Source: Sphingomicrobium nitratireducens | Lineage (GTDB): Bacteria; Pseudomonadota; Alphaproteobacteria; Sphingomonadales; Sphingomonadaceae | DNA length: 64,000 nt | NCBI RefSeq assembly: GCF_026157035.1 | Contig: NZ_JANJZA010000001.1 | Location: 227,001-291,000 of the forward strand | Reading direction: 5' to 3' | Shown: positions 36,971-42,314 of the stretch, in pieces | How positions within the stretch are numbered: the first letter of the stretch is position 1 | Layout of the letters: each line of letters opens with the position of its first letter | Position numbers and translations under genes: made by a program | Notes under the pieces: generated by a model | Told to the model about the DNA's origin: nothing | Database searches by the model: none | Seen by the model: only the letters and a program-made list of their open reading frames with translations

Positions 36971-37057
36971 GCGGTCGTGGCGGAACTGGTAGACGCGCAA
37001 CGTTGAGGTCGTTGTGGCCGAAAGGCCGTGGAAGTTCGAGTCTTCTCGACCGCACCA
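36971..37057 (+). tRNA. tRNA-Leu (anticodon GAG)
   Basis: 87 nt including an encoded CCA. Acceptor GCGGTCG pairs with CGACCGC; anticodon stem CAACG/CGTTG holds loop TTGAGGT with GAG at 37005-37007; a long class II variable arm (TGGCCGAAAGGCCGT) and the T arm GGAAG-TTCGAGT-CTTCT follow. It reads CUC and CUU codons. Confidence 0.97.
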
Positions 37058-37099: not shown

Positions 37100-39856
37100 C
37101 TATTCGCCTCCGCCCAGCGCGGGCGCGAGCGAGGCAGTGGCGACAGGCGGCGGTTGCGGCGGGTCGATCCCGTCGGGCAGCGTTGGGGTCGGCGCGGACT
37201 CGGCGATCCGCCCCGTCTCGGGCTTGAGCGCGATGGTGCCGACCCGCTGGTAGGGCGCGTCGGGAGTGACCAGCACGGGCGTGTCGAGCGACGCTTTGAC
37301 CTGGAGGAACGCGGCCGACGCCTTGGCGATGGCGAGGCGGTAATTGCCGTAGGGCACCTTTTCGATCAGGAAATAGCCGTCAAATTCGCTGCGCGCGCTC
37401 GCCACCTTGCGGCCCGTGCGATCAAGCAGCACGATTTCCACCCCTTCGGTCCCGCCGCCGCCGGCATTGACGAGGACGCCCTCGACCATGCCCGCACCGA
37501 CCAGCGGGATGTCGACCGAAGCGGTGACGCCCGGGCGCGGCACGACCACGCGCAGCGCCTCGGCCGGGGCGAGCGAAGGATCGATGGTGGCAAGGTCGAC
37601 TCCGACCGCCACCGGCGTGTGCGTGGCGAGCCCCGCCATCACCACTTCGCCGCGATCGTCGGTGACCGCGTCGCTCGCACGCATCCCTGCGGTGATCCCC
37701 GCGCCAGCCTGATAAGGCTCGTCGGCATCGCGAATCCCATTGCCGTTGTCGTCGCGGAACAATCGCGCCTTGATCGATCCGTTGCGCGCCAGCGTCCTGG
37801 AGGTCGGTCGCCAGCGACCGTTCGGAGCATCGATCGAGAAAGCGAGGTTGATCCCCGCCGCGACCGATCCGTCGGTGGCAGCCTCTGCAGTCAAGGCGAG
37901 CGAGGCAATGTCCAGCTTTCGAATATGGCTGACCCGCGCGCGCAGTCGCCCAGCATCAGGCTGCCAGCCGATCCCCGCGTCCCAGTCGACCCGTTCGCCG
38001 GCCGACCAGTAGGCGCTCAGTTCGGCGGTTCGCAGCCGTCCCTTGTCGAGGTCGAAGTCGGTGACTCCCTGGAGCCGGACCTTGCCGACACGGCCTGACC
38101 CGATCAGTCGCGCCCCGATCGCGTCGGAGGGCGTTCGGTAAGCGTGGCCGATGCCGCTGCGGGTCCAGTCGAATTCGGTGCCGAGATTGAACCGGCCGAG
38201 GGCGACGTTGAACCGTGTCGCTGCCTCGAGCGCCTTCGAACCGTCGGCATTGTCGGTCAATCGCAATCGCGCGGTCACCGGTACGGTGCGCTTGCCGAGC
38301 TTGATCGGCACGCTTGCGCCCGCGACATATTCCGCGCGGACCGGATTTTCGCGACTGTCGATGGTCAGCCCGCGATTGAGTCGGCTCGAGAGCGACAGCG
38401 CGACCTTGCCAAGCTGTGCGATGGCGCGGCTGCGCAACTGGAAGCCGCCTTTCTCGTTGGCGCTCGCCGACACTTCGACGAACGCACGCCCGAGAGTCCG
38501 GCGTACCGCACCCTCGACATAGGAGACGCGCTGGTCGTCTTCGAGCAGCGTCTGCGCGAGGAGGCCGACCGATGTCTTGCGGTCGAGCCCGTGGTCGAGC
38601 GCGACGGTTGCCTGGAGGTCGTATTGCGGCTTGTTGCCCCCGCCCAGCTCGACCAGCTGACGGCCCGGTTGGCTGACCGACGCAAAATACCAGGTCTGCC
38701 CGGGCGGAATCTGCTGTTCGCCGACCGTCACCGATTCGAGGCGGCGGCGGATCTGGCCCTGCGGTCCATAGAGGACGATCTCGACTTCGTTGTCGCCGTA
38801 GGTCAGCTCGATGTCCTCGAACAGATACTTGCCGTCGGGCGACGCCGTGGCGAAGGCCAGCAGCTGGCCGTTTCGGTAGAGTTCGGCGTCCCAGCCGGCA
38901 GGCAGTTCGCCTTCGAAGGTAACGCGATCGAAATTGGCGAGTCGGCGCAGCGGGCGGTTGGTGACGAGCGCGCCGCGCCCGCCGCCCGCAATCGACCCGA
39001 CGCCGTTGGCGCCGTGGACGAGATCGCCGATCTCGAGATGGGTTGCGTGGAGGAAACCGAGCAGGTCGGCGCCCGGGTCCGAGCGATAGGCGCGCAGACG
39101 CAGGCTGGTGCCGTTCAGCTGTTCGTTGGCCAGGCGCGCGTCGAACGACATTTTCGCGATCTCGCCCGAGGCGTAGACCGCCGCACTGCGGTCGATCTTG
39201 ACGCCGCTATGTGCGCTGTAGGCCGCGCCGCCGCTGACGATCACGTCGAGCGCAGGGGTGCGCCACATGCGATAGGGCAGCTTTACTTGCGGGAGTGCGG
39301 CCATGTCGAAGGTCGCACGCTCGAGGAGCGCCTCGGCGCGCTTGCGACGCTCGATGGCGAGTTCGACCGGCAACTTGGCTTCCGATTCGACACGCAACAG
39401 CGCGCCCGACATGTTCGCCTCGAGCCCCAGATCGAACCAGCGGGCGAGCGCGTCGCTGGCCACGCACCAGCCTTCGGGAACCTCGCGAATATCGCTTTTT
39501 GCAATTGCCTCGCGATTGCGGGCGGTAATCACTTCGCCAGCAGCGCGATCGATGTCGATGGTATTTTCCTCGGAAAACGCCCAACCGTGTGCTCGCTGTT
39601 CTTCGATATCGATTTTCAAAGGCACGTCGAGCGTCGACAGGAAATCGCCGAAGACGATGCACGCGCCCTCTGGCGTCGGGTAAGCACGCACGCCATCGCC
39701 GATGCGGTTCATCCGCAGACGGACGTCGAGCAGATACTGCTCCTCGGGATCGGCGACCCAACGCTCGGTAACCGGGCTCTCCGCAGGTGCGGAAACGCCG
39801 CCGGCCACGAGGGCCAGCAGCGTCAGCGCGTTCCTGAAGATGGACCGGAGCCGCAT
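37100..39856 (-). CDS. Divergent outer membrane usher-like protein
   Basis: 918 aa with a signal peptide (cleavage near residue 25). An N-terminal region (30-200) is unlike the classical usher domain. Residues 310-370 carry usher-type sequence: VTFEGELPAGWDAELYRNGQ and EIVLYGPQGQ. A long beta-rich barrel-like region follows. Near residue 700 is an SdrD-like loop (RDDNGNGIRDADE, possible calcium site), and residues 790-845 form a carboxypeptidase-regulatory-like beta sandwich. It lies downstream of a PapD-like chaperone and two DUF4402 subunits, so a role in subunit export across the outer membrane is inferred. A terminator follows. Confidence 0.75.
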   Translation of the reverse strand: MRLRSIFRNALTLLALVAGGVSAPAESPVTERWVADPEEQYLLDVRLRMNRIGDGVRAYPTPEGACIVFGDFLSTLDVPLKIDIEEQRAHGWAFSEENTIDIDRAAGEVITARNREAIAKSDIREVPEGWCVASDALARWFDLGLEANMSGALLRVESEAKLPVELAIERRKRAEALLERATFDMAALPQVKLPYRMWRTPALDVIVSGGAAYSAHSGVKIDRSAAVYASGEIAKMSFDARLANEQLNGTSLRLRAYRSDPGADLLGFLHATHLEIGDLVHGANGVGSIAGGGRGALVTNRPLRRLANFDRVTFEGELPAGWDAELYRNGQLLAFATASPDGKYLFEDIELTYGDNEVEIVLYGPQGQIRRRLESVTVGEQQIPPGQTWYFASVSQPGRQLVELGGGNKPQYDLQATVALDHGLDRKTSVGLLAQTLLEDDQRVSYVEGAVRRTLGRAFVEVSASANEKGGFQLRSRAIAQLGKVALSLSSRLNRGLTIDSRENPVRAEYVAGASVPIKLGKRTVPVTARLRLTDNADGSKALEAATRFNVALGRFNLGTEFDWTRSGIGHAYRTPSDAIGARLIGSGRVGKVRLQGVTDFDLDKGRLRTAELSAYWSAGERVDWDAGIGWQPDAGRLRARVSHIRKLDIASLALTAEAATDGSVAAGINLAFSIDAPNGRWRPTSRTLARNGSIKARLFRDDNGNGIRDADEPYQAGAGITAGMRASDAVTDDRGEVVMAGLATHTPVAVGVDLATIDPSLAPAEALRVVVPRPGVTASVDIPLVGAGMVEGVLVNAGGGGTEGVEIVLLDRTGRKVASARSEFDGYFLIEKVPYGNYRLAIAKASAAFLQVKASLDTPVLVTPDAPYQRVGTIALKPETGRIAESAPTPTLPDGIDPPQPPPVATASLAPALGGGE

Positions 39857-39885
39857 CGCTGGTTCTTCTTCCCCCCGGCGCCGCC

Positions 39886-40692
39886 CTAGGGGAGGACCGC
39901 GTCGTAGGCCGCGATCACCGCGCCGCCGTCATTGGGGTGCTCGCGGTAGGTGACCTTGACCGGTCCGCTGAGCGTGCCCTGGTAGTCGCCGCGTACCGGC
40001 ACCTTCACGGTGCGGTCGGCAATCTCCGTATAGAGCGCGATCCCGCGGATTTCCGCGATCGGCATCTCCTCGCCGTCCTTGGTGATCTCGATCGCGCCGT
40101 AGGTCGAGCGATCGCCTGCGCGCTTGAGGTCGACCTCGATCGCGCGCTCGTTCGTCGTGCGTACGTCGGTGATCGTGGTGTCGACTTCGAGCTGGCCGAA
40201 GCGGACGATCACCGGGATCGATACGCCGTAGACCGGGATCAGGCGGAAACTCATGCCACCGCCCACTTCGCGCTTTTCCACCGGGCGCGGCTTGGGAATC
40301 GCGCGAAACAGCAGGTGGACGCGATATTCGCCGTCGGCGAGGCCCTGCGGCGCGCGCGCGGCGATGCGGATCGCCTGCGGCTGGCCGGGCGGCAACGTCA
40401 CGCGGCGCGGGGCGAAATAGATCATTTCCTGCGCCAGGCGCTCGGCCTCGGTGGGATCCTCGACCTCGATCAACTGGCCGTCGGGCGTCATCCGGCGCAG
40501 TTCGGCCGACACGCGGTAGGTCGCCTCCTCTTCGCCGATATTGTTGAGCAGCACCTCGGTGCCGCGCCCGTTGGTCAGGACGATCCTGGTCGGGGCGACC
40601 AGGAGGTCGCCCACCCCGGCATTGGCGGAGACCGGCACCAGCGTCGCAGCGAGGGCGGCAACAGCGGTCATCAGGCGGTGGGAACGGGTCAT
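39886..40692 (-). CDS. PapD-like periplasmic chaperone
   Basis: 268 aa. Signal peptide ending SANA (near residue 25), then an Ig-like PapD domain: LLVAPTRIVLTNGRGTEVLLNNIGEEEATYRV, VTLPPGQPQAIRIAAR and GEYRVHLLFRAIP. A second domain (150-268) is less typical. The ATG at 40692 is preferred as it lies 10 nt from AGGAG; the ATG at 40701 is only 1 nt away from it. It precedes the usher by 29 bp and should hold unfolded subunits in the periplasm. Confidence 0.8.
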   Translation of the reverse strand: MTRSHRLMTAVAALAATLVPVSANAGVGDLLVAPTRIVLTNGRGTEVLLNNIGEEEATYRVSAELRRMTPDGQLIEVEDPTEAERLAQEMIYFAPRRVTLPPGQPQAIRIAARAPQGLADGEYRVHLLFRAIPKPRPVEKREVGGGMSFRLIPVYGVSIPVIVRFGQLEVDTTITDVRTTNERAIEVDLKRAGDRSTYGAIEITKDGEEMPIAEIRGIALYTEIADRTVKVPVRGDYQGTLSGPVKVTYREHPNDGGAVIAAYDAVLP

Positions 40693-40753
40693 CGGCGACA
40701 TACTCCTGGTCCTGCGGCGCAGCTCTTGCGCCGTTTCGGACCTATTCCTCGCC

Positions 40754-40769
40754 AAAATTGGTTAATTTT
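40754..40769. repeat. AT-rich inverted repeat upstream of the chaperone gene
   Basis: AAAATT-GGTT-AATTTT is a perfect 6-4-6 inverted repeat in a GC-rich background, about 60 bp upstream of the chaperone start. It could be part of a promoter or operator that serves the chaperone and usher genes after the upstream terminator. No convincing -35 was found. Confidence 0.35.
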
Positions 40770-40872
40770 ATGCCAACCCTGTTCGTTCTTTCGGGGCGCA
40801 AGAGCCCGGCGCTGCCCACGCGTCGGCGTCGTCGATTAACATTTCCGCCGGAGTAGGCTGCGTGCCGACCAC

Positions 40873-40902
40873 GAAAAAGGGCGCCGGCAAACGCCGACGC
40901 CC
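40873..40902 (-). terminator. Rho-independent terminator between the major DUF4402 gene and the chaperone gene
   Basis: On the minus strand GGGCGTCGGC-GTTT-GCCGGCGCCC (one G-U pair) is followed by TTTTTC. It lies 38 bp after the DUF4402 stop and before the chaperone, so it should limit read-through from the subunit gene into the assembly genes. Confidence 0.85.
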
Positions 40903-40940
40903 TCCTTCTTCAGGACCGGGAAGCCCCGGTCGTCAGTCGC

Positions 40941-41546
40941 TTACTCGTAGTCGGCGCTGACGGTGAAATCACCCCAATAGTCGCCGTCCGTCTGGTTGTC
41001 CGGGACGGTGATCGAGCCGCCGACGTTGAAGTCGAAGCTCGCGGCGCTGCCCGCGGCACCCGTGTTCGGGAGCGTCACGGTGTGCTCGTTGTCGGTCCCG
41101 GCAGCGGTCGCGGCACCGAGCACCGAGGCCTGGCCCGACAGGCTGACGTCGATGAACGGATTGGCGGTGTTGCCGTCGACATAGAGACGGGCCGACTGCG
41201 GGATCGTGACGACCACGTTGACGGCGCGCGTGCCCGAGAGCGAATAGGTTTCGTAGGTGCTGGTGTCGCCGGTGTTGAGCGAGCAGGTGAAGCCCGCGCA
41301 GCTGGCGGTGACCGAACCGTCCTCGGCGCTGACCGCGACGGTCGCGCTGGTGAGGCCCGTGCCGCCCGACGGCAGGACGATCGTGCCGAAGTCCAGCTCG
41401 CCGGTGTTGGTGATGTCGATCGGGCGAACGATCTTCACCTTGGCGCGGCCTTCGGTGTTCGGGTTGGCGGCATGTGCCGGCATCGCGGTGAGCGCGACGG
41501 CAGCGATCGAGGTGCCGAGAACGGCGAGACGCTTAAAATTGGTCAT
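40941..41546 (-). CDS. DUF4402 domain exported protein, candidate major pilus subunit
   Basis: 201 aa. Signal peptide ends at AHA (near residue 26). The DUF4402 pattern is clear: IVRPIDITNTGELDFGTIVLPSGG, a central disulfide pair (ASCAGFTCSL), and a closing GDYWGDFTVSADYE strand. Mature protein is small, Thr/Gly/Ala-rich and poor in Lys, as for fimbrial subunits. SD GGGGAA. A terminator right after it and a chaperone/usher pair downstream support the subunit role, which is inference. Confidence 0.82.
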   Translation of the reverse strand: MTNFKRLAVLGTSIAAVALTAMPAHAANPNTEGRAKVKIVRPIDITNTGELDFGTIVLPSGGTGLTSATVAVSAEDGSVTASCAGFTCSLNTGDTSTYETYSLSGTRAVNVVVTIPQSARLYVDGNTANPFIDVSLSGQASVLGAATAAGTDNEHTVTLPNTGAAGSAASFDFNVGGSITVPDNQTDGDYWGDFTVSADYE

Positions 41547-41660
41547 CTGGTTATTCCCCACTGGTCCATCAGAAGTGATTCGGCCTGCCAACTCGAAAAG
41601 CCGGCCGTCCGTGGTTTGGGGAATTAACCCTGATCGCTTACGGCTTTGCTCAGGGCCATG

Positions 41661-41696
41661 GTAAATTTGCCGTTTACGATTCCGCTAAAACGGAAT
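41661..41696. repeat. Two adjacent inverted repeats upstream of the major DUF4402 gene
   Basis: GTAAA-N7-TTTAC (41661-41677) is followed after 1 bp by ATTCCG-CTAAAA-CGGAAT (41679-41696). Both are perfect and AT-rich for this genome. They lie 115-150 bp upstream of the subunit start and just after the minor subunit stop. The second could end the minor transcript; the first could be an operator or promoter part. Confidence 0.4.
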
Positions 41697-41701
41697 GGAT
41701 T

Positions 41702-42235
41702 TCACAGATATTCCACCGAAATGGGGATATCTCCGCGAAAATCGCCCTCCAGCCCACCTTCGACGATCAGGCGCCCGCCGAAGTTGAACTGGAAACTTCC
41801 ATCGCCCCCGAGCGCGGGAAAGTCGGAAAAGTCGGCACTGATGTCCTCGAGCACGATTCGCCGGCCGTCGACCGAGTGAAGCTCGATTCGCGCGGGCATG
41901 TCGATCGACACGCGCCGTCCGGGCTCGCCGTGGATGGTGACGCTGCCCAGCATGGCGCGCGAGGAAATGGCAGTGACCGAGCCCGACACGCGCCGTTCGC
42001 CATCGGCGGCGAGCGTTGCGCTGCCCTCGCCCGAATCGAGGACGATCAGCTGCGCGAAGTCGAGTTGCGATTCGACCTGCAGTTCCACGAGTTGCTGCTC
42101 GCTTTCGGACTGGTTGGGCGTGGTGACCGGGCTCGAGCACAGGCGGCACTGGGCGTTCCCCGCGGCGGGCAGTGCCACGGAAGCCAGAATCGCGACCAGA
42201 GTCGCGCCAATCGGGGCAAGCCAGCCCTTGGTCAT
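41702..42235 (-). CDS. DUF4402 domain exported protein, candidate minor subunit
   Basis: 177 aa. Signal peptide ends near GNAQ (residue 28), followed at once by a CRLC pair. The core resembles the downstream DUF4402 protein: LDFAQLIVLDSGEGSATL, VSIDMPARIELHS and a final GDFRGDIPISVEYL. The extra N-terminal segment with two cysteines sets it apart from the major subunit. First gene of the inferred pilus locus; a tip or initiator role is a guess. Confidence 0.75.
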   Translation of the reverse strand: MTKGWLAPIGATLVAILASVALPAAGNAQCRLCSSPVTTPNQSESEQQLVELQVESQLDFAQLIVLDSGEGSATLAADGERRVSGSVTAISSRAMLGSVTIHGEPGRRVSIDMPARIELHSVDGRRIVLEDISADFSDFPALGGDGSFQFNFGGRLIVEGGLEGDFRGDIPISVEYL

Positions 42236-42314
42236 GCTCCCGGCCTATTGGGCGAGGATGAAAACAGGGTTAATGAACGGGCAACTTTTTGCCCCGCCGA
42301 CGCTTGGAGACGAC

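Follow-up and report, generated by a model that had tools for sequence, protein, structure and literature searches.

A predicted chaperone-usher pilus locus with DUF4402 subunits in Sphingomicrobium nitratireducens, proposed as a further deep branch of these systems

The window analysed here is a 64,000-nucleotide stretch of the Sphingomicrobium nitratireducens genome (contig NZ_JANJZA010000001.1, positions 227,001 to 291,000). Four consecutive genes lie on its minus strand, running from 42235 to 37100 in the order dufB, dufA, chaperone and usher, with all four reading frames intact and a signal-peptide-like N-terminal stretch in every product. The features of the locus and of the usher protein are as follows.

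42268..42273, minus strand: TTAACC, similar to a CtrA half-site, upstream of dufB
41702..42235, minus strand: dufB, exported DUF4402 protein of 177 aa (PF14352, 69.5 bits)
40941..41591, minus strand: dufA, exported DUF4402 protein of 216 aa from a TTG start (PF14352, 53.8 bits)
40872..40903, minus strand: intrinsic terminator between dufA and the chaperone gene, hairpin AGGGCGTCGGC-GTTT-GCCGGCGCCCT plus a T-run
40760..40765, minus strand: TTAACC upstream of the chaperone gene
39886..40701, minus strand: two-domain periplasmic chaperone of 271 aa, with a sigma chaperone profile match
37100..39856, minus strand: usher of 918 aa, with an AlphaFold2 model, FimD/PapC structural matches and a sigma usher profile match
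Usher residues 30-160: N-domain (model)
Usher residues 163-180: helix (model)
Usher residues 198-299 and 388-676: barrel strands (model)
Usher residues 311-378: plug, between strands 6 and 7 (model)
Usher residues about 690-785 and 787-880: C-terminal domains (model)
Usher from residue 702: calcium-type loop DDNGNGIRDADE

The initial annotation had described a consecutive four-gene set with two exported DUF4402 proteins and no classical adhesin. The open reading frames were indeed found in place, all on the minus strand; DufA and DufB both exceed the PF14352 (DUF4402) cut-off of 25.2 bits and have signal-peptide-like starts, and this cluster indeed lacks a classical adhesin; a related subtype does encode a two-domain adhesin-like DUF4402 protein. 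For dufA, an ATG at 41546 (201 aa) is a likelier start than the TTG. The chaperone ATG is preceded by AGGAG, and its listed open reading frame extends to 40755. A tRNA-Leu(gag) at window positions 36971-37057 (plus strand) is convergent with the usher gene, with 42 bp between the end of the tRNA and the usher stop codon.

The 918-aa product had been called usher-like, with an unusual N-terminus and an SdrD-like calcium loop. No Pfam or NCBIfam usher family matches the window protein, and when the PDB was searched by sequence alone, the usher and the DUF4402 and chaperone proteins yielded SdrD-type matches, chance matches or none. PF00577 had no match in 19 members of the new usher group at E 0.1, nor is there a PF00577 usher in the organism's own genome (2.27 Mb); TcfC (PF16967) and CooC_C (PF15976) match neither the window usher nor the sampled members. 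The AlphaFold2 model (pLDDT 83.7; strands assigned by DSSP) has six barrel strands, a beta-sandwich plug, 18 more strands (24 in total) and two C-terminal domains. The PapC/FimD barrel likewise has 24 strands and a plug between strands 6 and 7, and every one of the 19 best PDB matches of the model in Foldseek is a FimD or PapC structure, at 10-13% identity and with E values reaching 8e-28; the Z is 20.4 against FimD/PapC and 14.7 against the best non-usher barrel. In known ushers the plug sits inside the barrel (PMC3960871). Profile comparison with 20 sigma ushers, one of which is in a wrong frame, gave 99.0% (E 2e-18, 638 columns), and removal of that row left 99.0% with 19 ushers (E 7e-18, 682 columns); the C-domain aligns with sigma ushers, including the motif 'TD..G...l..L..y.p..i.iD...L'. 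Single-sequence hhalign comparisons with FimD and EcpC gave matches too weak to be informative. As modelled, the 918-aa protein is an outer-membrane usher with the barrel, plug and C-domain plan, and the earlier usher-like reading thus came through the check for a barrel.

The N-domain of known ushers recruits chaperone-subunit pairs. Here, the corresponding region (residues 30-190) has no profile match to the N-domains of sigma or classical ushers (probability 1%), whereas those two match one another at 85%, which bears out the remark on the unusual N-terminus. The calcium loop was also recovered, PF17210 matching the SdrD/carboxypeptidase-like C-terminal domain with 29.7 bits. The calcium-type loop occurs in 105 of 106 ushers of type A, the subtype of the window, in 10 of 14 of type B, and in none of 20 sigma ushers.

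The window chaperone has no Pfam PapD match and goes unrecognised by NCBIfam too; since Pfam matches neither it nor the usher, a family database could not have supplied the labels "PapD-like" and "usher-like". Profile comparison matched the chaperone to sigma chaperones at 97.9% (E 3e-13) and to the FimC type at 85%. Its fold was taken from a homologue, the chaperone half of a natural DUF4402-chaperone read-through frame in locus L079, which matches CsuC, YadV, CfaA, Caf1M, FimC and PapD (E 3.8e-9; Z up to 13.8, tied), with the sigma protein CsuC ranked first by Foldseek. The gene product is a two-domain PapD-fold periplasmic pilus chaperone, as the sigma profile match and the CsuC/PapD-type fold of the homologue confirm. 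The D1 proline that all members of the superfamily share is found here as P96, conserved in 98% of 53 diverse chaperones. Classical chaperones have an anchor pair numbered Arg8/Lys112. In the profile alignment R37 (94%) falls on the classical anchor Arg of strand A1, the FimC 'ATR', and the Lys112 column is occupied in the new chaperones by Pro161 (100%), an alignment-dependent equivalence. The carboxylate anchor of sigma chaperones is Arg89-Tyr196-Arg174 (PMC4654587); by profile alignment alone, His127 stands in the Arg89 column and Arg125 lies two positions ahead of it, and Tyr222, conserved in D2, is aligned with the Tyr196 region. From these alignments, the anchor may be of a mixed classical/archaic type.

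The DUF4402 proteins carry the marks of pilins at both ends. DufA ends in GDYWGDFTVSADYE, with a penultimate Tyr and a Gly 12 residues before, and the terminal GDFRGDIPISVEYL of DufB bears the pilin signature as well. A Gly exactly 12 residues before the terminal aromatic is found in 168 of 172 DUF4402 proteins, 14 of 20 SCPU (sigma) pilins and all six E. coli pilins. The DUF4402 and SCPU profiles match at 94.6% over the last 33 C-terminal columns alone, and the C-terminal pattern AGDY..T..VT..(Y/F) is common to both; the SCPU model (PF05229) has no match in the window pilins and none over threshold in the own genome. In the 93 DUF4402 proteins with a recognisable N-terminal strand, even positions have a hydrophobic fraction of 0.62-1.00 and odd ones of 0.00-0.06, an alternation that fits a donor strand. 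DufB has CRLC near its mature N-terminus; since, among 29 multi-gene type A loci, 18 have this motif in the leading DUF4402 gene and none in the last, DufB would be a distinct subunit, perhaps a tip or minor one, with DufA as the probable main pilin. The pairing of chaperone and subunits, on which the initial annotation depended, was checked in part: the subunits have the pilin signatures and the chaperone has the PapD fold, but in the L079 read-through model the DUF4402 and chaperone domains are well modelled and their relative placement is not confident (pTM 0.51). The fold lists for L079 were filled by the chaperone and so do not bear on the DUF4402 fold. Three further DUF4402 genes, two in tandem and one alone, lie in the same genome at L075:5541-6699 and L076:7603-8112, with the pilin C-terminal signature and without an adjoining chaperone or usher; they may rely in trans on the usher of the window for assembly.

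An alignment-based scan of the genome collection found 266 relative loci, with Sphingomicrobium lutaoense among the named relatives; the scan with the single usher sequence as query recovered none. In the related loci, as read from their open reading frames, the chaperone adjoins the usher in 119 of 119 and a DUF4402 gene adjoins the chaperone in 114, the five exceptions being three loci at contig ends, one with divergent DUF4402 genes and one whose sole DUF4402 gene lies behind the usher. Because this order is kept so widely, the four genes form a real unit, beyond chance. Such counts describe features of a family whose proteins share descent, not separate events. Relatives of the usher are present in 56 of 149 sampled genomes of Sphingomonadaceae, and the locus extends to further families and classes within the phylum. 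Plasmids of Polaromonas (Betaproteobacteria) and Pseudoalteromonas (Gammaproteobacteria) carry the genes in the same order, and their ushers are named 'carboxypeptidase-like regulatory' or 'SdrD B-like domain-containing protein' at NCBI; 'carboxypeptidase regulatory-like' is the NCBI name for usher relatives.

In type A loci the chaperone gene is preceded by one to three DUF4402 genes, and 48 of the 77 type A loci having DUF4402 hold a single such gene without an adhesin; loci with one DUF4402 gene would build one-subunit fibres. Some type B loci (L057, L064-L067) have behind the usher an extra protein of about 340 aa, with DUF4402 at the C-terminus and an uncharacterised N-terminal half, the same layout as in two-domain tip adhesins. 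No such protein is found in the window. Some type B ushers (in L059 and L061-L063) reach 1200-1313 aa, with 300-400 extra residues, in loci of up to four DUF4402 genes.

The intergenic regions of the family carry signals of their own. The strong terminator between dufA and the chaperone gene has a z of -4.8 against shuffles (79-nt stretch), and a terminator-like site is present in 67 of 76 regions, with 22.8 expected from mononucleotide shuffles; it probably keeps the pilin in excess of chaperone and usher. Of 76 regions upstream of the leading DUF4402 gene, 58 contain TTAACC against an expectation of 6.8, and 31 contain the exact CtrA half-site TTAACCAT, as named in PMC3692519 and PMC6180460, where 0.8 would be expected. 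This half-site has a density there of 1.30 per kb versus 0.016 elsewhere in the same loci (about 80-fold); in type B it is present in 1 of 13. The window has TTAACC upstream of both dufB and the chaperone gene, and the exact 8-mer is absent. These CtrA-type sites suggest that the pilus may be under cell-cycle control in part of the Sphingomonadales. Type A chaperone genes are preceded in 42 of 76 regions by a separate conserved octamer, GCTAACCA/TGGTTAGC, for which 0.3 would be expected; an interpretation of the chaperone promoter as sigma54-like was not retained.

How the locus relates to the known systems was assessed part by part. With the archaic (sigma) systems, such as Csu of Acinetobacter baumannii, it shares the gene order (pilin, chaperone, usher), homology in all three parts at the profile level (usher 99.0%, chaperone 97.9%, SCPU pilin 94.6%), the terminal pilin motif with the same spacing, and the alignment of the D2 Tyr222 with the Tyr196 region. 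It differs in lacking PF00577 and SCPU matches, in an usher that stands on a separate branch with an N-domain unrelated by profile, and in having the calcium-type loop (0 of 20 in sigma) and the A1-strand Arg (R37), both missing from the archaic systems; the DUF4402 pilin also ends one residue past the aromatic, like classical and unlike archaic pilins. Membership of the archaic group alone was set aside: PF00577 and SCPU have no match, and the usher is outside the sigma clade in the tree. The classical systems (FimC-FimD-FimA, PapD-PapC) have the same usher plan and fold, the penultimate Tyr and the Gly 12 before it are common to both, and the A1-strand Arg aligns with that of FimC ('ATR'). 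However, the usher profile match to the classical group is 11%, the Lys112 column is an invariant Pro in the new chaperones, and genes for a tip fibrillum are absent from the window. With the alternative (alpha) systems (TcfC, CooC, EcpC) the new usher shares the carboxypeptidase-like C-terminal domain (C-domain profile 95%, 135 columns), yet the TcfC and CooC_C models, which match a second usher of the same genome, miss it, and the alternative ushers form a separate branch.

The usher tree was built from the barrel, the plug and the first C-domain of 48 new, 19 sigma, 6 alternative and 4 classical ushers, leaving out L216, L261 and L265 as wrong-frame ORFs. In this unrooted tree, from an alignment of about 17% identity and a sample that excludes beta, kappa and pi ushers, each group falls on its own side of a branch (new 100/100, sigma 100/99, alternative 100/99, classical 100/100), so that the group of the window usher lies outside the sigma clade. 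On these grounds we put forward, as a well-supported proposal, that the locus belongs to a fourth deep branch of chaperone-usher pili. The initial annotation had judged the system distinct from the common types and poorly described, and the usher tree, the absent Pfam and NCBIfam usher matches and the literature agree with it: in the openly accessible literature searched, we found no mention of 'DUF4402' and no description of an usher in alphaproteobacteria or sphingomonads or of a new usher clade.

From the gene set, the barrel-plug-C-domain plan, the chaperone fold and the pilin end signatures, all seen in sequence or models, we consider it highly probable that these genes together make up a complete pilus system of the chaperone-usher kind, one that belongs to a deep, undescribed branch and works by donor-strand polymerisation and extrusion. 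The earlier interpretation as a pilus or surface-fibre system is thereby supported, through the barrel fold, the pilin signatures and the tree. DufA, and probably DufB, would be exported by Sec; the chaperone would hold the DUF4402 subunits in the periplasm and deliver them to the usher, where the N-terminal strand of one subunit would complete the fold of the next to form a polymer. The plug would then move aside and the fibre, with subunits in an order that we infer to place DufB at the tip, would be extruded through the 24-strand pore and may be used for attachment to surfaces or cells. We lean slightly towards a broader reading, in which DUF4402 proteins serve as pilins in a fourth major chaperone-usher group, equal in age to the classical, alternative and archaic ones and spread across Alpha-, Beta- and Gammaproteobacteria, with a subunit-recruiting usher N-domain of its own, a mixed classical/archaic chaperone anchor and, in Sphingomonadales, a pilin promoter under CtrA cell-cycle control.

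The closest competitor holds that the locus is an ordinary, fast-evolving archaic member and not a branch of its own. The best profile relatives of all three parts are sigma proteins, DUF4402 and SCPU share the terminal pattern, and Foldseek puts CsuC first for the chaperone; still, the missing PF00577 and SCPU matches, the His127 in the sigma Arg89 column of the profile alignment and the split of the sigma ushers (100/99) from the 48 new ones (100/100), in a tree that is unrooted and drawn from a ~17% identity alignment, make this unlikely. Could the usher instead secrete DUF4402 proteins as soluble or coat-forming monomers that never polymerise into fibres? The many type A loci that lack an adhesin and encode one DUF4402 protein would suit such a function, as would the spore-coat proteins among the sigma relatives, from which Pfam names SCPU. 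However, the strict alternation in the N-terminal strand agrees with donor-strand exchange, a terminator placed after the pilin gene and before the chaperone gene agrees with a subunit required in larger amounts, and some type B loci encode a two-domain adhesin-like protein; we regard secretion of monomers as improbable. Decay or silencing of the locus in this strain seems to us more improbable again: a few relatives do have a stop codon within the matched stretch, but the window has four intact frames, a ribosome site and promoter-type motifs, and the usher is kept in 56 of 149 genomes of the family. A polymerised pilus remains our preferred reading.

A second chaperone-usher locus, of the alternative type, lies in the same genome at L252:3620-7866 (contig C1, about 1637.6-1641.9 kb). 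In it, the usher scores 47 bits with TcfC and 44 bits with CooC_C, and the other members are a TcfA-like chaperone and two pilin-like ORFs. The third-position GC of this stretch is about 0.57 versus 0.85 or more on one side, and because of this low value it was probably acquired. Alternative systems are said to be restricted to beta- and gammaproteobacteria (PMC9452303); TcfC matches were found here in 8 of 149 genomes of the alphaproteobacterial Sphingomonadaceae. One of the pilins (L252:4243-4758) scores 16.6 bits with SCPU and 16.3 bits with DUF4402, both below cut-off, and is a possible link between the two families.

The working principle is a known one, that of a chaperone-usher system and distant cousin of E. 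coli pili; what is new is the proposed branch, and the system is present in many environmental proteobacteria. Standard annotation misses it because its parts are so different in sequence, and pilus surveys based on PF00577 miss the branch as well, since among the same 149 genomes 56 have the new usher and 28 a PF00577 match. If the proposal is true, the DUF4402 family gains a function, and a whole pilus branch has gone unseen behind labels such as 'carboxypeptidase regulatory-like domain-containing protein'. The system would then provide a test case for the diversification of the usher N-domain and the chaperone anchor, and for the cell-cycle control of adhesion in sphingomonads.
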